Assembly (NCBI GenBank): GCA_013297655.1
Contig: JAAFHV010000064.1
Coordinates: forward strand, 1-37,530
Source of the DNA: Myxococcales bacterium
GTDB lineage: Bacteria > Myxococcota_A > Polyangia > Polyangiales > Polyangiaceae
Direction: 5' to 3'
DNA length: 37,530 bases
Of this stretch, positions 5,431 through 26,267 are shown in pieces (within the stretch, counting starts at the first letter, position 1; every line of letters starts with the position of its first letter). Made by a program: the position numbers and the translations under genes. Under the pieces are notes generated by a model. That model searched no databases and was not told where the DNA came from. It worked only from the letters and a program-made list of their open reading frames with translations.

Positions 5431-6783
5431 ATGTCGCTTCGCCTCGTGATGGCGGTCTCGCTCGCTCTGCTCGGATGTGGCGCGCAACGCCGCGACCCCG
5501 CACGTGCGAGCGCGATTCGTGCGGTCGAGGACCGCGGCGATCCTGCCGTGGCGCCGCGTTTCGCACCGGATCCGAAGCTCGTGGCGGGCGTGTCGGCGAC
5601 GAGCGACACCGAAGAGGCCCCGCTGTCCGTGCTCCTCGTCACGATCGATTCGCTCCGCGCCGACATGCCGTGGGCGGGGTACCCGCGCGAGATCGCCCCC
5701 CGCCTCACCGAGCTCGAGCGGCGTTGCGTGACCTACGAGCGCGCCTACGCCACCGCTTCGCATACCGCGCCGAGTGTGGCGTCGATCCTCTATGGCAAGT
5801 ATCCCTCGGAGCTCCCGCGCGACGGGGCCTTCTCTGCGGTGTATCCAAAGTCGCTCGAGGGGTTTCCGCACGCCCTCCGATCGGCGGGATACACCGTGGT
5901 CGCCGGCCACGCACACGACTACCTACGCCGCGCCGGGTTCGCCTCCGGCTTCGACTCGTATGCCCTCGTCCCTGGTCTCCGCCCGGCGCCGAACGTCGAC
6001 CCGAATCAAACGTCGAAGGCACTCGAGGCGCTCGCCGAGACACAACTGGACGCCCTCGATTCAGGGGAAAAGAAGCCGTTCTTCGCCTGGTACCATTTCG
6101 TCGACCCCCACGCGGAGTGGCTCGCCCCGGCCAAAGACGAGGAGGTGCCGGACTTCGGTCCGAAGCCGCGCGATCGTTACGATGCCGAGGTTTATGTCAC
6201 GGACAAGTACGTCGGGAAGCTGCTCGACTACATGGAAGACAAGGGCATGCTCGCGCGCACGGCGATCGTGGTCACGAGCGACCATGGCGAAGGCATAGGG
6301 GATCACGGCCAGCTCTTTCACGGATACGAAACATGGGAGAGCCTGGTGCACGTCCCGCTCTTCGTGTGCATTCCCGGGGTCGCGCCTCGGCGTGTCACCA
6401 CCCCGCGGAGCCTCGTCGATCTCGCCCCCACCATCCTCGAGCTCGCGCACGTGGAGAAGAGCTCCGATTTCCGTGGGACCTCCCTTGTCGCGGAGGTGCG
6501 AGGAGCCAACGCCCCCGCGCGCCCCGTGCTCGTCGATCTCCCTGCAAACGAGCTGTCGTTCGCGCGGCGCGCGCTCGTGGGGGAGAAGCTGAAGGTCGTT
6601 TACATCGGGGAATCTCGCCGTCGCCTCGTATACGACCTCGAGAACGATCCGGCCGAGCTTCACCCGATTCGCTCCGGGCCGCTCTGGGAAGAAGAGACAC
6701 GCAAGCTCCGCGAGGTGGAGAGCACGCTCCGTGAGGTGGTGCCTTCACGCTGCGCCCGAGGCTGCGCCCGAGGTTGGGACTGA
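5431..6783 (+). CDS. Sulfatase / alkaline-phosphatase-superfamily lipoprotein with Thr at the nucleophile position
   Basis: 450 aa. ATG 5431 opens a short signal peptide with lipobox LLGC (Cys16). The rest is an alkaline phosphatase-superfamily (sulfatase/phosphoglycerol transferase-like) domain: metal ligand Asp73 in LLVTIDSLRAD, the active-site turn SHTAPSVASILYGKYPSE at 110-127, metal ligands TSDHGEGIGDHG (Asp284, His285) and His297. In true sulfatases the turn is C/S-x-P-S-R, with the Cys or Ser converted to formylglycine; here it is T112-A-P-S-V, so formylglycine cannot form. Thr nucleophiles occur in phosphoethanolamine/phosphoglycerol transferase relatives, making a phospho-transferase or phosphatase possible. 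The C-terminus (RCARGCARGWD) is unusual and lies in a 123-bp tandem duplication. Confidence 0.82.
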   Translation: MSLRLVMAVSLALLGCGAQRRDPARASAIRAVEDRGDPAVAPRFAPDPKLVAGVSATSDTEEAPLSVLLVTIDSLRADMPWAGYPREIAPRLTELERRCVTYERAYATASHTAPSVASILYGKYPSELPRDGAFSAVYPKSLEGFPHALRSAGYTVVAGHAHDYLRRAGFASGFDSYALVPGLRPAPNVDPNQTSKALEALAETQLDALDSGEKKPFFAWYHFVDPHAEWLAPAKDEEVPDFGPKPRDRYDAEVYVTDKYVGKLLDYMEDKGMLARTAIVVTSDHGEGIGDHGQLFHGYETWESLVHVPLFVCIPGVAPRRVTTPRSLVDLAPTILELAHVEKSSDFRGTSLVAEVRGANAPARPVLVDLPANELSFARRALVGEKLKVVYIGESRRRLVYDLENDPAELHPIRSGPLWEEETRKLREVESTLREVVPSRCARGCARGWD

Positions 6784-6907
6784 AACCCGATTCGCTCCGG
6801 GCCGCTCTGGGAAGAAGAGACACGCAAGCTCCGCGAGGTGGAGAGCACGCTCCGTGAGGTGGTGCCTTCACGCTGCGCCCGAGGCTGCGCCCGAGGTTGG
6901 GACTGAA
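6662..6907. repeat. Perfect 123-bp tandem duplication at the end of the sulfatase-fold gene
   Basis: Copy 1 is 6662-6784 and copy 2 is 6785-6907; reading base by base they are identical. The unit is 41 codons, so frame is kept. Each copy ends in the same TGA, so copy 1 codes for the last ~41 residues and copy 2 lies after the stop (6781-6783). Copy 2 fills almost exactly the space before the convergent gene's stop codon (complement of 6908-6910). A 12-bp internal repeat (GCTGCGCCCGAG twice) sits near the end of each unit. Confidence 0.95.
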
Positions 6908-16174: not shown

Positions 16175-17011
16175 ATGAAGGCCGTCGACCCCGCAGCCTA
16201 CGCTGTACCCGCTTACATCGTGTTCCTCGCGGTGGAGATCGCGGTTCTCCGCGGCAAGAGCGAGGTCTGGTCGCGGAAGGTGGCCGGCTACGAGAAGCGC
16301 GACACCCTCGCGTCTCTCGGCATGGGGGTGGGGAGCCTGCTCTTCGCCGGCGCGATTCAGCTCGCGACGTACTCGGTCTCGGATTTGCTCTGGCCGCATC
16401 GGTTTTACGACCTCGGCGAGGGTGTGCACGTGTGGATCGCGGCGGCGCTGATATGGGACTTTTGTTTCTATTGGCACCACCGCATCAGCCACGAGGTTCG
16501 CCTGTTCTGGGCGTCGCACGTGAATCATCACTCCAGCAAGCACTACAACTTTTCTACCGCGCTCCGCCAAGAGTGGACTCCGTTCACGAACCTGCTCTTT
16601 TACCCGCCGTGGGTGCTCCTCGGCTTCCGCCCTCACATCATGGCGATCGTCGGCGGCGCGAACTTGGTTTACCAGTTTTTCCTCCACACCGAGGTGGTCG
16701 GCAAGCTCCCGCGGCCGCTCGAATTCGTGATGAACACGCCTTCTCACCATCGCGTGCATCATGCATCGAACGAGCGCTACCTCGACAAGAACTACGGCGG
16801 CATCTTGATCGTGTGGGACCGGCTCTTCGGCACGTTCATGGAGGAGAAAGAGCCTGTCGTGTACGGCCTCGTGAAAAACGTAGAGAGCTTCAATCTCTGG
16901 ACGATCGCGTGGCACGAGTACGGCGCGATGTTCCGCGAGATGGGCGCGCGGAAGGGGCTCGGCGCCAAGCTCCGTGTGCTCCGTCGCATGCCGCCCGATG
17001 CGATGCCGTGA
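16175..17011 (+). CDS. Sterol desaturase / fatty acid hydroxylase family membrane enzyme
   Basis: 278 aa. Start is either GTG 16169 or ATG 16175; the latter is used. The protein has N-terminal, central and later hydrophobic segments and the full histidine cluster of the family: HHRISH (101-106), HVNHH (115-119) with His123, and HHRVHH (191-196), which bind a di-iron centre for O2-dependent hydroxylation or desaturation of lipids. Residues 75-100 contain a membrane segment leading into the first box. It follows the LysR gene closely. A decayed second copy of its 3' part lies at about 17908-18196, showing past duplication. The lipid substrate is unknown. Confidence 0.9.
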   Translation: MKAVDPAAYAVPAYIVFLAVEIAVLRGKSEVWSRKVAGYEKRDTLASLGMGVGSLLFAGAIQLATYSVSDLLWPHRFYDLGEGVHVWIAAALIWDFCFYWHHRISHEVRLFWASHVNHHSSKHYNFSTALRQEWTPFTNLLFYPPWVLLGFRPHIMAIVGGANLVYQFFLHTEVVGKLPRPLEFVMNTPSHHRVHHASNERYLDKNYGGILIVWDRLFGTFMEEKEPVVYGLVKNVESFNLWTIAWHEYGAMFREMGARKGLGAKLRVLRRMPPDAMP

Positions 17012-17087
17012 TCGTCGGTCCTGGTTGCACGCGCTCTGAGCGTCGCGAAGCCGCGCTCCGTAGCCGCCCACCATCCTGTCGAGGCGT

Positions 17088-17180
17088 CGTCTCGTCTCGT
17101 CTCGTCTCGTCTCGTCTCGTCTCGTCTCGTCTCGTCTCGTCTCGTCTCGTCTCGTCTCGTCTCGTCTCGTCTCGTCTCGT
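17088..17180. repeat. CTCGT pentanucleotide microsatellite, about 18.6 copies
   Basis: Eighteen uninterrupted CTCGT units run from 17091 to 17180, with a partial unit (CGT) at 17088-17090. It lies 76 bp after the hydroxylase stop and 88 bp before the SUKH-family start. Such perfect 5-bp arrays are prone to slippage, so copy number may vary between isolates. It codes for nothing convincing. Confidence 0.97.
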
Positions 17181-17907: not shown

Positions 17908-18196
17908 TTTACCAACGGGTTCCGCCCCCACGTCATGGCGATCATCGGCAACGCGAACTTGGTTTAGGTGCGTCCCACCATCGCGTGCATCATGCATCGA
18001 ACGAGTGGGGCCGGCTCTTCGGCACTTCATGGAAGAGAAAGAGCCCGTCGTGTACGGCCTCGTGAAAAACGTAGAGAGCTTCAATCTCTGGACGATCGCG
18101 TGGGACGAATACGGCGCGATGTTCCGCGAGGTGGGCGCGCGAAAGGGCCTCGGCGCCAAGCTTCTCCGTCGCGTGCCATCCGATCCGACGCCGTGA
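17908..18196 (+). pseudogene. Decayed 3' copy of the sterol desaturase-type gene
   Basis: The segment aligns by eye to about 16606-17011 of the intact gene. It lacks the 5' two-thirds and has three lesions. About 73 bp (parent 16672-16744) are replaced by about 8 bp. 39 bp (parent 16775-16813) are lost. A 1-bp deletion turns GGCACGTTCATGG into GGCACTTCATGG. The last ~170 bp remain very similar, including the terminal TGA at 18194-18196. The HRVHH histidine box is still readable, but no functional enzyme can be made. Confidence 0.88.
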
Positions 18197-19257: not shown

Positions 19258-21912
19258 TCAGAACGCAGCTTCGATACCAATGCTCGGCACCGCGATGGGC
19301 CCGATCTCGTCCGCCACGCACCCATCGCCGAGGTCCACGTCGTCTGCGGTCGCGACGGTGCCGCACGTGACGCCGTTGGCCTCTTTTCGCAGCGTCACGT
19401 TCAAGCCCTCGAGCACCGCCGACACGTAACGCCCCTGCGAGAACGTCCACTTCTTCTCGAGGCGCAAATCCAAGCGATAAAACCCTGGCATTCGCCTCGA
19501 GTTCGGCGCGGCGAGGAACGCGCCGTTGAACGAGGTCGGCGTGTAGGGGCGCCCGGAATAATAGAGAAACCGGACTCCCGCGCGGTAGCCGCGACCGATC
19601 TCGTAGGCGACGGCCGCGTTGAAGACGTGGGTGCGATCGTAGTCCGACGGGATCTCGACCGGCGCGCCAGCCTCGCGATCGATGTCAGCGGCGAAACGCC
19701 GGAACCCCGAGCCGAAGACGTGGACTGGCACTTTGCGGAACGAGCGCGACAGCGTGTACGAGAGGAAACCGGTGAGTCGCTCGGTGAAGGGCCGCTTTAT
19801 GTAAACCTCTAGCCCGAACGCGCCGCCGGTCGATCGCTCGGTGCATGCGTTGCCGTCGGTGAACGCGTTTCGAGCGCCGGGACAGGCCGCGAACACGTCG
19901 GCGAGGCCCACCGTGCGCGACGCGAAGAACGTGGTCGTGAGCGAAAAGGCATACGGAAGTGCCCACTCGATTCCGTGGCTCGTCTGCGCCGAGCGCTCGA
20001 GCCCCTCCGCGAGCCTACCGACGGTGAGACCGGGGAGTGGCAATACGAACCGAGGGGGCTGCCCCGCGATTCCGGCGGTGGAAACGAACACCACGCGCGG
20101 CATCACCTTGACACGCGCCGAGACACGAGGCTCGATCGAGAACCGAGTCGCAGAGAGCGGATCGGGGTGGAGCGTGTAGAGTACATGCTCGATCCGGTAC
20201 GCAGAATACCTATCGATCCGGAGCCCGGCGGTGACCTTCAAACGCTCGGAGTCGGTGTAGGTTACGTCGCCACGAATGCCCATCGCGAGCTCGTCGCGGG
20301 TGGGGAAGAGCTTCTCGAACTCGGGATTCGGGAGGGTGAGGTCCGAGGCCTTCACCGCGTACCTTTGATAGATTGCGTCCATGCCCCCGCGGAGGAGCAG
20401 GTGCTCGCCGAGCGGGCGCTCCGCCTCGATCCGCGCGCCCATCATCTCGGCCTCGACGCGGTCCTTCAGGCCGAGGGCGCTCGCGTCTTTGCCGACGATG
20501 AATGCTTCGCGCGTTCGTACCCCTTTTTCCACATGATCGTGGCGCGCCTCGATGCGGGAGAACTCGGTCTCGAAGATGGTGCGCGTCTCGAGGCCGGTGC
20601 GCTCGGTCTCGCCGAGACCGATGGGATCGCTGACGGTAGGTTGCCCCCGGATCGAGCCCGAACGACGCCCGAGGTAGTCGTAGCTGCCGAGCACGAGCAC
20701 GGACACCGAGTCTTCTTTTCCGACCGGCATCACCCAGCGTAATTGGTAGTCCCAATACGATAGTCGTGTGTTGGGCGCGAAGATGGGGAGGAGCAACCCG
20801 GGATACCCGAAACGACCGGCGGCGAGCACGGTGCCGAGGCCCTGCGGGAGGGGTGTCTCCACGAGGGCGCCCGCGTCGAGGAGGCGCACGTTTCCTTCGC
20901 CGTGCAGCTTGTCGCCCGGCGCGCGTGTCTCGGCGGTGACGATGCCACCCGAAGCGCGCCCGTACGCGGCAGGGGCGGAGCCAGGATAAAAATCGATGTG
21001 ATCGACGAGCGCAGGATGAATCACGCTCGGGCCTGCCCCGAGGTGAAAGAGCACCGGCAAGCGAATGCCATCGATGAAATAACCCGTGCTCCCGGGGGGG
21101 GCGCCGCGCACGAAGAAAAAGGGCAATCCGCTCGCCATCGGGGTCACCCCCGGGAGGGCCTCGAGGGCACGAAACGCGTCGCCGAACGCGCCCGGCATGT
21201 CGCGCACCTCCGCCCTCCCGAGTGACAATTTGCCTGCCGCGCGCCGCTGGCCGGTCACCTCGACGTGCTCGATCGGCGTCGCGACCACGGGGGTGTCGTC
21301 GCCATAGGGGTTCTTCGGCAGCACCGGCAGCGGCGCCTCGTAGGGATCCTCGGGCAGGTCGACCGCGGGTACGAAGCGGATCGGGATTCGGATCTTGGCG
21401 GCCACCGTCGCGCCGTCCTTCGTGGCCGGGTCGAAGGTCATCGCGAGCACGGCCTTCTCCGCGGCCTCGACGAACGGAGCCCGCCCCGCGACCGCGTGGA
21501 CCTCCGACGGGGTGCCCTCGCGAGAGACCAAGAGCTCGACGACCACCTCCGCGAACCCCTCGCCTCCGAGCGGGTACGGCGCCTCCACGTCGCCTCGCGC
21601 GCGTGGTGGCACGATCGTGGGCGCGCCCGATGAGTACGGCGAGGGCGGCAGCGCGGTCGGCGGAGTCGGAGCTGCGGTTGGCGGAGTCGGAGCTGCGGTC
21701 GGCGGAGTCGGAGCTGCGGTTGGCGGAGTCGGAGCTGCGGTCGGCGGAGTCGGAGCTGCGGTCGGCGGAGTCGGAGCTGCGGTCGGCGGAGTCGGCGTCG
21801 TCGCTGGTGGTTCGGGTGGCGCCTGCGCGAGCGCGACGCGGCTACCCGAGACGAGCGAGACGAGGACGAGCGCCACCGCGAGCGCCGAGGGGCGGCGCCA
21901 CACCGTGCTCAC
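19258..21912 (-). CDS. TonB-dependent receptor with fused TonB C-terminal-like domain
   Basis: 884 aa. GTG 21912 overlaps the stop of the GH1 gene (GTGA). A signal peptide (VSLVSGSRVALAQA) is followed by a Pro/Thr spacer of six PTPPTAA heptads, then a TonB C-terminal-like domain (about 100-180; EAPYPLGGEGFAEVVVELLV, VEAAEKAVLAMTFDPA). A plug domain follows (VEVTGQRRA; ALEALPGVTPMASGLPFFFV; GYFIDGIRLP; AYGRASGGIVTAETRA), then a 22-strand-type outer membrane barrel ending in an aromatic residue (GIEAAF). TonB_C and receptor fused in one chain is seen in Myxococcota. Coupling to a GH1 glycosidase suggests uptake of a carbohydrate or glycoside; this is inference. Confidence 0.88.
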   Translation of the reverse strand: MSTVWRRPSALAVALVLVSLVSGSRVALAQAPPEPPATTPTPPTAAPTPPTAAPTPPTAAPTPPTAAPTPPTAAPTPPTAAPTPPTALPPSPYSSGAPTIVPPRARGDVEAPYPLGGEGFAEVVVELLVSREGTPSEVHAVAGRAPFVEAAEKAVLAMTFDPATKDGATVAAKIRIPIRFVPAVDLPEDPYEAPLPVLPKNPYGDDTPVVATPIEHVEVTGQRRAAGKLSLGRAEVRDMPGAFGDAFRALEALPGVTPMASGLPFFFVRGAPPGSTGYFIDGIRLPVLFHLGAGPSVIHPALVDHIDFYPGSAPAAYGRASGGIVTAETRAPGDKLHGEGNVRLLDAGALVETPLPQGLGTVLAAGRFGYPGLLLPIFAPNTRLSYWDYQLRWVMPVGKEDSVSVLVLGSYDYLGRRSGSIRGQPTVSDPIGLGETERTGLETRTIFETEFSRIEARHDHVEKGVRTREAFIVGKDASALGLKDRVEAEMMGARIEAERPLGEHLLLRGGMDAIYQRYAVKASDLTLPNPEFEKLFPTRDELAMGIRGDVTYTDSERLKVTAGLRIDRYSAYRIEHVLYTLHPDPLSATRFSIEPRVSARVKVMPRVVFVSTAGIAGQPPRFVLPLPGLTVGRLAEGLERSAQTSHGIEWALPYAFSLTTTFFASRTVGLADVFAACPGARNAFTDGNACTERSTGGAFGLEVYIKRPFTERLTGFLSYTLSRSFRKVPVHVFGSGFRRFAADIDREAGAPVEIPSDYDRTHVFNAAVAYEIGRGYRAGVRFLYYSGRPYTPTSFNGAFLAAPNSRRMPGFYRLDLRLEKKWTFSQGRYVSAVLEGLNVTLRKEANGVTCGTVATADDVDLGDGCVADEIGPIAVPSIGIEAAF
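21659..21793. repeat. 21-bp tandem repeat coding for PTPPTAA heptads
   Basis: Six complete 21-bp units (GGCGGAGTCGGAGCTGCGGTT or ...GTC, read on the plus strand) plus a 9-bp partial run from 21659 to 21793 inside the receptor gene. They differ only at the last base, alternating between T and C. In the protein they make the flexible linker between signal peptide and TonB-like domain. Because the unit is 7 codons, copy number can vary without frameshift. Confidence 0.95.
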
Positions 21913-23489
21913 TCGCAGGGCGTGGGAGCGGCGTAGGGAGGCAAGGCGTCGATGTCCGCTTGGGTCACCTTGCCGGCCTCGATGATGCGCGTGAACGTGT
22001 CGGTGCTCTTCCGACGCGTGCGCGTCTTGGTCTTCGTGTCGTACGCGACGAGCCCGAAACGAGGGCAAAATCCGCTGTTCCACTCGAAATTGTCGATGAG
22101 GGACCAGTGGAAGTAGCCGCGCACGTCGAGCCCGCGCTTCATCGCGAAGCCGACCTCGAACACGTGCTCGGCGATGAAGCGCGCGCGGTTCTTGTCGGCC
22201 GAGTCGGCGATGCCGTTCTCGGTGATGTAAACAGGAAGCTTGTATTGTGCAACTTCGTCCAGGATCGTCGCGAACCCCTGCGGGTGGATGTCCCAGTAGA
22301 AGTCGGTCTTCGGGCGATCGGACGTGAGGCGATCGGCCTTGATGACCGCGTTGAGGCGCGGGAGCACGATGCCGGACGAAGCGGCCGCTTCCATCGCGGT
22401 GTAGTAGTTCACGCCGAGGAAGTCGGCGCGGCCGGCGAGCTCGGGGTCGGCTTTTTTGTCGTTCGGTCCGTCGAGCTTGCCGTCGAAGTCGTCGTCGAAG
22501 TCGCCGCGCGTGCTCGTGTTCGCGAACCAGAGGTTGTTCACGTAGCGCACACGATCGGCGGCGGCGCGGTCGTCGGCGTCGTTCGGATCGCGCGGATACA
22601 CGTCGCGTTGGTGCAGCACCGGGCCTACGAGGGCGGCCTTTCCGTCACCGTCGGCGTCGATCGTGTCGGCCTTCTTGATCGCGTCGTAACAGCGCGCGTG
22701 GCCCCTCGCCTCGGCTTTTGCCACCGCGAAGGCGCGATCGACCTCGAGGGTGAGCCCGGGAGGGAACCCGCCCTGGATGTAGCCCGCGAGCGGCGCGACG
22801 ACCGGCTCGTTGATGGTCGCCCACAGGTCCACGTCGGCGCCGAAGCGCTTCGCGATGCGGTCGCAGTAGGTCGCGAACGCGTTTACCGTATCGGGGATTT
22901 CCCAGCCGAACGGGCCCGCCACGCGCGGGTCGGCGACGTAGGCCGGGAGCGAGAAGTGGCTCAGCGTGAGCATGAGCGTGATCTTCGCCGCGCGGAGCTT
23001 GGTGACGAGCTCCTTGTACTTTGCAAGCGTCGGCTCGTCCGGGGTGTCGGCGTCGAGCGATGCCCGTGTAGGATACAGCTTTCCCCACTCGAGCGAGAAG
23101 CGGTACGCGTTCTGCTTCGTGGCGACGAGGGAGGCCACGTCCTCGTCGATGTGGGCGAGCGCGTCGGGGCCGTCGTCGGGTTTGTCCCCGCCCTTGATTT
23201 TCCCGGGAGTAGCGGCCCAGATGCCCCAATCGGTGTTCGCGTTGCCGCTCTCGATTTGGAACGACGCGGTCGCCGAGCCCATGAGGAAGCCCTTCGGAAA
23301 CTCGACCTCGCTCGGGCGCGGCGGGCCTGCGTCGGTCGATGCGTCGGCCCCGGCCGCAGGGGTGGACGAGCTGCACGACGACGCGAGCGCGACCCCGAGC
23401 ACGAGGAGCCCCCCGGCGGCGAGCGTGCGCGGCGCGCGAGCGAGCGGAGCGAGGAGAGAGTCGGTGCGTGATTTCGTCTCGTGGCTCAT
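21909..23489 (-). CDS. Glycoside hydrolase family 1 lipoprotein (beta-glycosidase)
   Basis: 526 aa. ATG 23489 has a strong Shine-Dalgarno (GGAGGG), and its ATGA overlaps the upstream gene's stop. Long n-region, then lipobox LASSC (Cys39), so the enzyme is probably membrane-anchored outside the cytoplasm, which is unusual for GH1. The (beta/alpha)8 hallmarks are present: FPKGFLMGSATASFQIE, LTLSHFSLP (His178), the acid/base in TINEP (Glu228), NYYTAM, the nucleophile in ITENG (Glu424), and FHWSLIDNFEW. A calcium-loop-like DADGDGKAALVG (279-290) and a DFDDDFDGKLDG insert suggest metal binding. It probably hydrolyses beta-glucosides or beta-galactosides whose products enter by the adjacent TonB-dependent receptor. 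Confidence 0.9.
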   Translation of the reverse strand: MSHETKSRTDSLLAPLARAPRTLAAGGLLVLGVALASSCSSSTPAAGADASTDAGPPRPSEVEFPKGFLMGSATASFQIESGNANTDWGIWAATPGKIKGGDKPDDGPDALAHIDEDVASLVATKQNAYRFSLEWGKLYPTRASLDADTPDEPTLAKYKELVTKLRAAKITLMLTLSHFSLPAYVADPRVAGPFGWEIPDTVNAFATYCDRIAKRFGADVDLWATINEPVVAPLAGYIQGGFPPGLTLEVDRAFAVAKAEARGHARCYDAIKKADTIDADGDGKAALVGPVLHQRDVYPRDPNDADDRAAADRVRYVNNLWFANTSTRGDFDDDFDGKLDGPNDKKADPELAGRADFLGVNYYTAMEAAASSGIVLPRLNAVIKADRLTSDRPKTDFYWDIHPQGFATILDEVAQYKLPVYITENGIADSADKNRARFIAEHVFEVGFAMKRGLDVRGYFHWSLIDNFEWNSGFCPRFGLVAYDTKTKTRTRRKSTDTFTRIIEAGKVTQADIDALPPYAAPTPCE

Positions 23490-24475
23490 GCGCCCTCCAT
23501 TCCGGTGACGACGCGGTTTCTGCCGCTGTCTTTTGCGACGAGCAGGCGATCGTCGGCCATCGCGACGAGCGCCCCCTCTTCGGTGCCGAGGGCGAGCTCG
23601 CTGAGGCACGCGACGCCGAGGCTCACGGTGACCCGCACTCCGGGCGGCGGGCCCCCGTTGACGCGAAGCTCCGCGATCGAGGCGCGAATCCGCTCCGCCA
23701 GGCGCGCCCCCGCGTCGCGGCTCGTGGCGCGCGCGAGAACGGCGATCTCTTCCCCGCCGTAGCGGGCGACGACGTCTTCCGTGCGCACGACGCGCAGGAT
23801 TTCGTCCGCGACGGCGCAGAGCACTTCGTCTCCAGCGAGGTGGCCGAGCCTGTCGTTTACGAGCTTGAAGTGATCGATGTCGAGGAGGATGAGCGAGAGC
23901 GGGCTCTGGTGCCGGCGCGCATAGGCCACTTCGGCGACGAGGCGCTCGGCGAAGTACCGGCGGTTGTAGAGTCGCGTGAGCGCGTCGCGGGTGGAGGAGT
24001 CGAACAGCTTGCGCTGGAGGTCGGCCTCGGTCTCGTCCGTGACGGCAAAACGGAGGACCACGTTCGGGCCGAGTTGGATGCGGTCGCCGGGCACGAGCTC
24101 GACGCAGTCGGACACCTTCTTACCGCTGACGAAGCTGCCATTCGTGGACCCGAGATCCTCGAATGTCCACGCGGTGCCGGACCACGCGACGCGCGCGTGC
24201 GAACGGCTCACTCCCGAGTCGTCGACGATGCAGTCGCAATCGGAGCTTCGACCCACGACGTGGGTGCCCTCGTCTGCGAGACAGAACACCTGACCGGCGT
24301 TGATCCCGGTGAGCATCACGAGGGTCGGTCGATCGCGGACCTCGGGGGCGGCTTTCACCTTGCCCGGCTCGGTCTCGCGGTCGTCGTCGGCGCGAAACCC
24401 GGGCGAGGTCTCGTTGTCCGGATCGCGGACGTCGAGCAGGGAGGTGGAGATCCGCTGTGTCGTGCGATTCTTCAA
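23486..24475 (-). CDS. FHA-GGDEF diguanylate cyclase
   Basis: 329 aa. TTG 24475 is the start, supported by GGAGGG six bases upstream. Residues about 50-145 are an FHA phosphothreonine-binding domain (VVGRSSDCDCIVDDSGVSR, SHARV, LGSTNGSFVSG). Residues about 155-325 are a GGDEF domain: DALTRLYNRRYF, LLDIDHFKLVND with metal-binding Asp199, the active site RYGGEEI (240-243) and an RTED inhibitory site (231-234) five residues before it, so c-di-GMP synthesis with product inhibition is expected. The N-terminal ~45 residues are disordered. It is the first gene of the operon with GH1 and the TonB receptor (4-bp overlaps). That links c-di-GMP or Ser/Thr-kinase signalling to glycan uptake only by position. 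Confidence 0.92.
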   Translation of the reverse strand: MKNRTTQRISTSLLDVRDPDNETSPGFRADDDRETEPGKVKAAPEVRDRPTLVMLTGINAGQVFCLADEGTHVVGRSSDCDCIVDDSGVSRSHARVAWSGTAWTFEDLGSTNGSFVSGKKVSDCVELVPGDRIQLGPNVVLRFAVTDETEADLQRKLFDSSTRDALTRLYNRRYFAERLVAEVAYARRHQSPLSLILLDIDHFKLVNDRLGHLAGDEVLCAVADEILRVVRTEDVVARYGGEEIAVLARATSRDAGARLAERIRASIAELRVNGGPPPGVRVTVSLGVACLSELALGTEEGALVAMADDRLLVAKDSGRNRVVTGMEGA

Positions 24476-24592: not shown

Positions 24593-25462
24593 ATGGGACT
24601 TCTCGACGGCAAAGTGGCGATCGTCACCGGGGCAGGCAACGGCATCGGCCGCGAGCACGCTCTTCTGTTTGCGCGTGAAGGCGCGAAAGTACTCGTAAAT
24701 GACGCTGGCGGCGGGCGCGACGGCGCGGTCGCTGACCTTCGTGACAGCGGAGATGGCGCGGGCAGCTCCGCTGAATCGGTCGTTGCAGAAATTCGGAAGG
24801 CCGGCGGCGAAGCGATCGCGAGCTTCGACTCGGTCGCCGTCGCGGAGGGGGCAGAGCGCATCGTCGCGGACGCCGAGAAGGCGTTCGGTCACGTCGACAT
24901 CCTCGTGAACAACGCGGGCATCCTCGTAGACAAGAGCCTCTTGAAGATGGAGGAGTCCATGTGGGACTCCGTGATTGCCGTTCATCTGAAGGGCACGTTC
25001 CTCTGTTCTCGCGCGTTCGCGAAGCGTGCGGTCGCGCGCGGCGAGGGGGGGCGCATCGTGAACACCACCAGCGTGTCCGGTCTCCTCGGCAACTTCGGCC
25101 AATCGAACTACGCGGCGGCGAAGGCTGGCATCTACGGGCTCACCCGCACGATGAGCATCGAGCTCCAAAAGCATCGCATCACGGTGAACGCGCTCGCGCC
25201 GATCGCGAAGACGCGAATGACGAACGATCTCCCAATGTTCCAGAACATGGAGACGATGGGGCCCGAGCACGTGGCGCCTGCCGCGCTCTTCCTCGCGAGC
25301 GACTTGTGCGGCGGGCGGACGGGCTACGTGCTCGCGGTCGCTGGCGCGCGCATGTACGCGTTCAAGGTCGTCGAGACGGCCGGCAAGTTCAAAGAGGGCG
25401 AGTCCACGGTGTGGACCGCGAACGAGATCGCCGACAACTGGGACGCGATCGTTCGCGCGTAG
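24593..25462 (+). CDS. Short-chain dehydrogenase, (3R)-hydroxyacyl-CoA dehydrogenase-like
   Basis: 289 aa. ATG 24593 with AAGGA about 6 bases upstream; the longer in-frame extension is antisense to the FHA-GGDEF gene. The Rossmann motif is AIVTGAGNGIGREHALLFA; NNAG appears in VDILVNNAG; the catalytic Ser is in NTTSVSGLLGNFG, and the Tyr/Lys pair in SNYAAAKAG. An insert with VNDAGGGRDGA and AESVVAEIRKAGGEAIA matches the subgroup including peroxisomal multifunctional enzyme type 2, suggesting (3R)-hydroxyacyl-CoA or hydroxysteroid oxidation with NAD+. Divergent from the FHA-GGDEF gene. The C-terminal 50 residues are longer than in minimal SDRs, fitting that subgroup. Confidence 0.9.
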   Translation: MGLLDGKVAIVTGAGNGIGREHALLFAREGAKVLVNDAGGGRDGAVADLRDSGDGAGSSAESVVAEIRKAGGEAIASFDSVAVAEGAERIVADAEKAFGHVDILVNNAGILVDKSLLKMEESMWDSVIAVHLKGTFLCSRAFAKRAVARGEGGRIVNTTSVSGLLGNFGQSNYAAAKAGIYGLTRTMSIELQKHRITVNALAPIAKTRMTNDLPMFQNMETMGPEHVAPAALFLASDLCGGRTGYVLAVAGARMYAFKVVETAGKFKEGESTVWTANEIADNWDAIVRA

Positions 25463-25625: not shown

Positions 25626-26267
25626 ATGCTGAACCCGAAGGCGATCCTCAAAGCGGCGGTGGGCTACCTACGGAAGAACCCCGACGAGGTGGTGAAGGCA
25701 GCGTCGAACGCGACCGCGCTCAAGTTCGGCGTCCCGCTCGCGAGCCTTCGCTGGCTCGCCGGCCAAATTCAGGGAAAAAGAGCCCCGAAGGAGGTCGAGA
25801 TCGACGCGACCCCACCCGCCCTGCGGTTCAGCGCCGTCATCGACGCGATGGGCACGCCCCTCCGCGCCGCGGCCTCGATCAAGATCGACGATGTGAACAT
25901 CTCGCCAGACAGCATTCGTGTCGGCGTGCGGCTCCGCGACGTGAAGCTCGCCGTGCTCTCGGACGTCGAGTCGCCGGTCTCGATGCTCGTGCGCTCCGGC
26001 GCGCTCGACCTCTCGAAGCCGGGCAACGTCGTCAAGTTTCTCCCCAAGCGACCCGCCGCGATCGTCGAGGCGGAGGGCGATCGCATCGTGGTCGATTTCA
26101 TGCAGGTGCCGAAGATCGCGGCAAATAAGGCCTTGCGGAAGGCGCTCGCGATCCTCTCGCCGGTGCTCGGCATCGGCTCCATCGAGACCGACGCGGACCA
26201 CATCTACATGAAGCTCAAGGCCACGCCGGCCGGTCTCGGCGAGGCGATCGACGCGCTTCGACGGTAG
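25626..26267 (+). CDS. Hypothetical protein, function unknown
   Basis: 213 aa from ATG 25626; ATG 25584 (14 residues longer) is also possible, with a weak GGA before each. No signal peptide or membrane segment is evident. The N-terminus is helical and basic (PKAILKAAVGYLRKNPDEVV), residues about 60-145 are beta-rich (ALRFSAVIDAMGTPLRAAASIKIDDVNI, IRVGVRLRDVKLAVL), and the end alternates helix and strand (NKALRKALAILSPVLGIGSIET). Codon use matches real genes in the window. I do not recognise the family; a lipid- or membrane-associated beta domain is conceivable but unproven. It precedes tRNA-Pro by 43 bp. Confidence 0.65.
   Translation: MLNPKAILKAAVGYLRKNPDEVVKAASNATALKFGVPLASLRWLAGQIQGKRAPKEVEIDATPPALRFSAVIDAMGTPLRAAASIKIDDVNISPDSIRVGVRLRDVKLAVLSDVESPVSMLVRSGALDLSKPGNVVKFLPKRPAAIVEAEGDRIVVDFMQVPKIAANKALRKALAILSPVLGIGSIETDADHIYMKLKATPAGLGEAIDALRR

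Follow-up and report, generated by a model that had tools for sequence, protein, structure and literature searches.

In TonB-linked carbohydrate-utilisation loci, a glycoside hydrolase lipoprotein is encoded beside a TonB-dependent receptor (TBDR). A second point of reference for the locus considered here is DgcB (Bd0742) of Bdellovibrio bacteriovorus, in which a threonine of the tail is reported to bind the FHA domain and cyclase activity to rise when the tail is locked; the tail motif consists of this threonine (T14, in the context S-I-V), hydrophobic residues at -3, +2 and +3, Glu at -2 and Ser at +1 (PMC6733907). Likenesses to both systems are found in a contig from a Myxococcales bacterium (JAAFHV010000064.1, assembly GCA_013297655.1), where genes for an FHA-GGDEF protein, a glycoside hydrolase of family 1 (GH1) with a lipoprotein signal and a TBDR follow one another head to tail on the minus strand (Table 1). 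The stretch analysed, referred to as the window, is this complete contig of 37,530 nucleotides (C508), part of a 9.9-Mb assembly in 546 contigs. Comparison with relatives gives about an even chance to the proposal that the functional unit is the FHA-GGDEF/GH1 pair and not the trio: a diguanylate cyclase like DgcB, gated by phosphothreonine, would be made along with an exported beta-glycosidase, and the receptor would be a lineage-specific addition.

Conservation of the FHA-GGDEF/GH1 pair and place of the receptor

Of the 183 genomes of the order, 50 (that of the window among them) contain a homologue of the window's GH1 protein at E <= 1e-80, leaving 49 relatives (G036 and weaker GH1 homologues lie outside this set). 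The surroundings of all 49 were fetched, often ended by contig ends, and 59 loci were mapped by tblastn at 1e-5; ten of these hold a weaker homologue of GH1, a second piece of GH1, or an FHA-GGDEF gene in the absence of GH1. In 15 of the 49 relatives an FHA-GGDEF gene adjoins GH1 and is read from the same strand, in either gene order. GH1 comes first in G025, G034, G030 and G010 (family f1) and in G043, G056, G050 and G101 (f8); FHA-GGDEF comes first, as in the window, in G139, G136, G133, G137, G141 and G128; and in G163 an FHA-GGDEF gene flanks GH1 on both sides. The contig of G100 ends 96 codons into an open reading frame (ORF) that starts like an f8 FHA-GGDEF gene, beside GH1. In G036 an FHA-GGDEF gene ends 21 bases before the contig end, with an ATG 2 bases past its stop, and the end of a GH1 gene lies at the end of another contig; we infer that a pair spans this contig break.

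A four-base overlap at the junction of the two genes, like that in the window, is possible in nine of the 15 relatives (G025, G034, G030, G056, G139, G136, G133, G137 and G141). Among the other junctions, two lie within 1 bp (G043, 0; G050, -1) and two are spaced (G128, +27; G101, +15), those of G163 are -8 (FHA-GGDEF to GH1) and +31 or +40 (GH1 to FHA-GGDEF), and the G010 pair, which is interrupted by an IS3-type insertion, was left out of the junction values. By itself a four-base overlap is ordinary in this genome: crude gene calls of the window show one in 3 of its 17 other neighbour pairs that run in the same direction. More than chance is needed to explain why it recurs between FHA-GGDEF and GH1 in relatives.

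The initial annotation had joined the receptor to this pair as a sugar-uptake operon, in which a beta-glycoside outside the cell is cut at the surface by GH1, the product enters through the TBDR and the FHA-GGDEF protein ties its use to kinase and cyclic di-GMP (c-di-GMP) signals; it had named a lack of conservation of the trio as grounds for refuting this. The head-to-tail order with overlaps, the lipoprotein signal and the intact GH1 motifs are consistent with such a scheme, and a hydrolase lipoprotein adjoining a TBDR is shared with TonB-linked carbohydrate-utilisation loci. However, the window's receptor was directly beside GH1 in none of the 49 relatives (at the threshold above, which more distant receptors could escape); it was matched in one of the 59 loci, that of G163, ~4.6 kb from GH1 and beyond a short-chain dehydrogenase/reductase (SDR) gene, and the downstream genes inspected in relatives do not look like receptors. 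The trio is thus ruled out as a conserved sugar-uptake operon, the refuting outcome named beforehand having occurred for the receptor, and of the earlier interpretation the tie between cyclase and glycosidase stands on its conservation in either order, whereas the sugar-uptake part, with the receptor beside GH1 in the window alone, does not. The genes scanned also differ from TonB-linked carbohydrate-utilisation loci in having no sugar transporter, regulator or SusD-like partner, and no sugar kinase or further glycoside hydrolase was among the neighbouring genes scanned. The start of the receptor gene, and with it the second overlap, is uncertain, and the protein belongs to a many-copy family. 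Sugar uptake is therefore possible in this organism, but it is not what relatives conserve, and as an explanation of the locus it appears unlikely.

The encoded proteins and the layout of their genes

The three ORFs and both four-base overlaps lie where the initial annotation had placed them, and the codon-position GC of the three genes resembles that of real genes of the window. The gene caller used was crude and hid the FHA-GGDEF gene beneath a plus-strand frame; key genes were placed through tblastn and by hand.

Pfam matches of the FHA-GGDEF protein (GGDEF, 3e-41; FHA, 7e-20) and its best Protein Data Bank (PDB) match, the DgcB structure 6hbz (6e-35), place it close to DgcB. The two proteins share the tail-FHA-GGDEF layout, the phosphothreonine-cleft residues of the FHA domain (R, S-R, H, T-N, from the alignment with 6hbz and Pfam), an RxxD I-site (RTED in the window) and GGEE, and T11 is followed by S-L-L where T14 of DgcB is followed by S-I-V. 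The fit of the tail is partial: Ser is found at +1 and Leu at +2 and +3, but Ile occupies -2 and Arg -3, so the Glu at -2 and the hydrophobic residue at -3 are missing. The window protein differs from DgcB in that its gene is coupled to one for a GH1 lipoprotein, that its active-site motif ends in Ile and that no predation role is known for it.

The GH1 protein (Glyco_hydro_1, 7e-82) has a full-length GH1 domain and catalytic motifs in common with beta-glucosidases and beta-glycosidases of known structure (PDB 6z1h, 3ta9 and 1od0), although it falls far under the NCBIfam cut-off for GH1 beta-glucosidases (259.7 versus 478.5 bits). The acid/base motif is conserved among homologues (NEP in 45 of 45 rows), as is that of the nucleophile (TENG in 44 of 45), the exception being G010, in which GH1 is broken by IS3-type transposase genes (L065:8266-9833). 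Unlike these enzymes, the window protein carries a signal sequence with a lipobox-like Cys (GVALASSC, read by eye) and is therefore predicted to be an exported lipoprotein, its lipidation being deduced from this signal; it may face the periplasm instead of the surface. A simple lipobox pattern matches 42 of the 45 homologue rows, at least two of which (G165 and G062) are spurious to the eye. A scan of genome contigs returned 15 GH1 loci, whose best segments are 28-46% identical.

Start sites differ in quality along the three genes. GGAGGG-like sites precede TTG 24475 of FHA-GGDEF and ATG 23489 of GH1, but none lies ahead of GTG 21912. Starting the receptor at another GTG (21903), 9 nt further along, would give it an equally good signal peptide, so the overlap of GH1 with the TBDR gene hinges on the chosen start. 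No promoter was found by a sigma-70 scan, and terminator-like sites numbered 9, versus 4.0 in shuffles.

The TBDR has Pfam matches to TonB_C (3e-7), Plug (2e-7) and the TonB-dependent barrel (1e-7). Its TonB C-terminal-like domain, noted in the initial annotation, is real: an AlphaFold model of amino acids 90-335 reached a pLDDT (predicted local distance difference test) of 91-96 over the domain, the plug being poorly modelled, and the top Foldseek matches were TonB C-terminal domains. The receptor is one of several TonB_C-Plug-barrel receptors in its own genome, with four further strong matches, and relatives of it were found in 14 of 14 genomes searched, many with a TonB_C domain. This domain is thus usual for the family and no mark of this operon, and the idea that it sets this receptor apart was dropped. 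Also dropped was an inner-membrane-anchored, self-energising receptor, since the N-terminus is, by eye, an ordinary cleavable signal peptide ending in ALAQA. It is possible that the domain competes or pairs with a true TonB. MxcH-like TBDRs share an N-terminal TonB_C domain, and the NCBIfam MxcH model (NF038079) matches amino acids 103-226 of the window's receptor; because the match is confined to this TonB-like part, at 27.7 bits against a cut-off of 925, the receptor is no MxcH.

Table 1. Positions, strands and supporting evidence of the features discussed (aa, amino acids).
Feature	Position	Strand	Evidence
Predicted FHA-GGDEF diguanylate cyclase, 329 aa, TTG start	23486..24475	-	Pfam; best PDB match 6hbz; RTED, GGEEI
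FHA domain, aa 73-136; phosphothreonine-cleft residues GR, SR, H, TN kept	24068..24259	-	Pfam, alignment with 6hbz
GGDEF domain, aa 162-321; active-site GGEEI, I-site RTED	23513..23992	-	Pfam, motif reading
ATGA, overlap of FHA-GGDEF stop and GH1 start	23486..23489	-	Sequence; like junction in relatives
Predicted GH1 beta-glycosidase, lipoprotein signal (ALASSC), TINEP (acid/base) and ITENG (nucleophile)	21909..23489	-	Pfam 7e-82, PDB GH1 matches, orthologue motifs
GTGA, overlap of GH1 stop and possible TBDR start; alternative GTG 21903	21909..21912	-	Sequence
TBDR with N-terminal TonB_C-like domain	19258..21912	-	Pfam; paralogues in own genome
Pro-rich linker of TBDR, 6.8 copies of 21-bp unit, before TonB_C-like domain	21653..21795	-	Repeat search
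TonB_C-like domain, aa 122-181	21370..21549	-	Pfam, AlphaFold, Foldseek
Plug domain, aa 245-323	20944..21180	-	Pfam
TonB-dependent barrel match, aa 511-832	19417..20382	-	Pfam
Divergent SDR, MFE-2-type (3R)-hydroxyacyl-CoA dehydrogenase-like	24593..25462	+	Pfam adh_short 4e-43; PDB matches

Repeats are found elsewhere in the window. Between two genes, positions 17087-17180 hold 18.8 perfect copies of the 5-bp unit TCGTC; an exact 123-bp tandem duplication at a gene end (6662-6907) is either real or an assembly artefact; and a 137-bp direct repeat, 95% identical (16835-16971 and 18026-18162), duplicates the end of a fatty-acid-hydroxylase gene beyond the next gene.

Descent of the paired cyclases and their neighbours

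In a 38-row tree, the f1 upstream, f1 downstream and f8 FHA-GGDEF genes fall in different parts, and a single clade of all GH1-paired proteins, as expected of one paired ancestor, was rejected by the approximately unbiased (AU) test (p 1e-42 overall, 5e-8 within f1). Since the paired proteins are not one clade, different FHA-GGDEF paralogues have held the place beside GH1. Grouping the window protein with the upstream set was not rejected (p 0.33), and grouping it with the downstream set was weakly rejected (p 0.022). The paired state requires a minimum of six changes on this tree. The number of origins is not firm, because the rows are best hits and the non-paired ones are no random sample; loss of GH1 beside some copies could explain part of the scattered pairing. 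The simplest story is that two FHA-GGDEF genes flanked GH1 in f1, one or the other being later lost, with f8 as a third lineage.

These data bear on the view that the neighbourhood has no function, an old gene order having been kept by short overlaps and drift with a cyclase that does not regulate the glycosidase. The presence of several FHA-GGDEF paralogues per genome, the ordinary nature of four-base overlaps and the frequent occurrence of GH1 apart from FHA-GGDEF would all be expected under it. Yet the order of the two genes varies, GH1 of G163 is flanked by an FHA-GGDEF gene on either side, and different FHA-GGDEF clades occupy the place, including in f8, where SDR, SCP2 and racemase genes are not beside the pair, so that drift appears an improbable explanation.

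The wider neighbourhood in relatives contains genes of lipid metabolism type. In 22 of the 49 an SDR gene runs divergently next to GH1 or FHA-GGDEF, an SCP2 gene lies downstream in 16 and a CoA-transferase-III (alpha-methylacyl-CoA-racemase-like) gene is present in 14. PDB matches of the SDR are to (3R)-hydroxyacyl-CoA dehydrogenase/MFE-2/17beta-HSD4 (2et6, 3e-98; 3oml; 1gz6; 1zbq), those of the SCP2 gene to sterol carrier protein 2 and the SCP2-like domain of MFE-2, and for the racemase-like gene alpha-methylacyl-CoA racemase ranks above formyl-CoA transferase. It was thus considered that GH1 may deglycosylate a sterol or lipid glycoside of the envelope, that the aglycone may feed chain shortening of the MFE-2/SCP2/racemase type, and that the cyclase may act as regulator. 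The recurrence of these neighbours and their structural matches argue for this pathway, but in f8, G133 and G128 the SCP2 and racemase genes are found at other places, which makes the link to lipid genes loose, and the window's own genome lacks their orthologues; the proposal is accordingly a tentative one.

At G000:C246:2097-3176 (minus strand) an open frame of ~1054 aa carries three SCP2-like matches in tandem. Beside the window's SDR gene, gene A2 (25626-26267) is conserved, the other 10 rows being 54-67% identical, with no Pfam or NCBIfam match and a low-confidence model (pLDDT 44).

Signalling genes also occur near some loci. MshEN, reported as a c-di-GMP receptor domain in Vibrio MshE (PMC5013675), is matched in 11 of the 59 loci; the proteins encoded near SCP2/racemase genes (L055:985-2106, L065:3385-4560, L099:4550-5467 and L058:11366-12802) are of the predicted c-di-GMP-receptor type, and in several relatives lie beside a zinc-ribbon Ser/Thr kinase. 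Apart from L065, the source of the query, genes for this kinase at 62-82% identity are present in L055, L099, L138 and L139; other loci, those of f8 among them, have weaker kinase matches.

Several observations weigh against a cyclase-glycosidase unit of this kind. No adjacent FHA-GGDEF was present in the fetched stretch of 34 of the 49 relatives (some contigs end early) and GH1 persists without one in G020, G156, G157, G028 and G107, so the link is not obligatory; conversely, G011 and G033 have FHA-GGDEF by the SDR gene but no GH1. The active-site motif of the window protein is GGEEI, unlike the GGEEF usual among 37 homologue rows, which makes its predicted cyclase activity less sure. The window's genome contains neither an SCP2 orthologue (best E 3e-10, 34%) nor a racemase orthologue (3e-14, 30%), so the lipid context does not apply fully there; in other genomes searched, racemase was found in 6 of 7 and SCP2 in 7 of 7. 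Kinase and MshEN genes are likewise not in the window.

A proposed role for the pair and its implications

If the pair is the functional unit, the FHA-GGDEF protein, gated by phosphothreonine of its own tail or of a partner, set by a Ser/Thr kinase, would make c-di-GMP, and translational coupling to GH1 would link the production of signal and enzyme. The GH1 lipoprotein would then cleave a beta-glycoside, either within the envelope or on the cell surface. An apparent lineage-specific addition where relatives keep SCP2/racemase, the TBDR probably shares a transcript with the two genes here and may import a cleavage product, in the window's organism only. In this scheme the domains, motifs, overlaps, conserved pairing and scarcity of the receptor at this place are observed, and co-transcription, enzyme activities, location, substrate and any regulatory link are inferred. 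The MFE-2-type dehydrogenase, SCP2 and racemase-like genes found nearby in relatives make it no less probable that GH1 acts on a lipid- or sterol-linked glycoside, or on glycan of the cell itself, than on a nutrient sugar; their predicted functions speak for lipid-linked glycosides no less than for sugar uptake.

A more extended envelope circuit can be drawn, in which a Ser/Thr kinase would write phosphothreonine, FHA-GGDEF would read it and make c-di-GMP, and MshEN would read the latter, with the coupled, exported GH1 acting on a lipid or sterol glycoside that feeds the MFE-2/SCP2/racemase module. FHA-GGDEF proteins from separate lineages would have been placed before or after GH1, and in the window's lineage the TBDR would have replaced the lipid part. 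It is doubtful that this whole scheme is correct.

FHA-gated cyclases are numerous in these large genomes, and few have an assigned function. No paper on FHA-GGDEF/GH1 pairing was found in literature searches, whose coverage took in few subscription journals. A cyclase that is found again and again in an operon-like arrangement with a single exported enzyme, whichever gene comes first, provides a concrete output for study. In addition, the unusual, predicted exported GH1 family raises the question of which beta-glycoside is cut.

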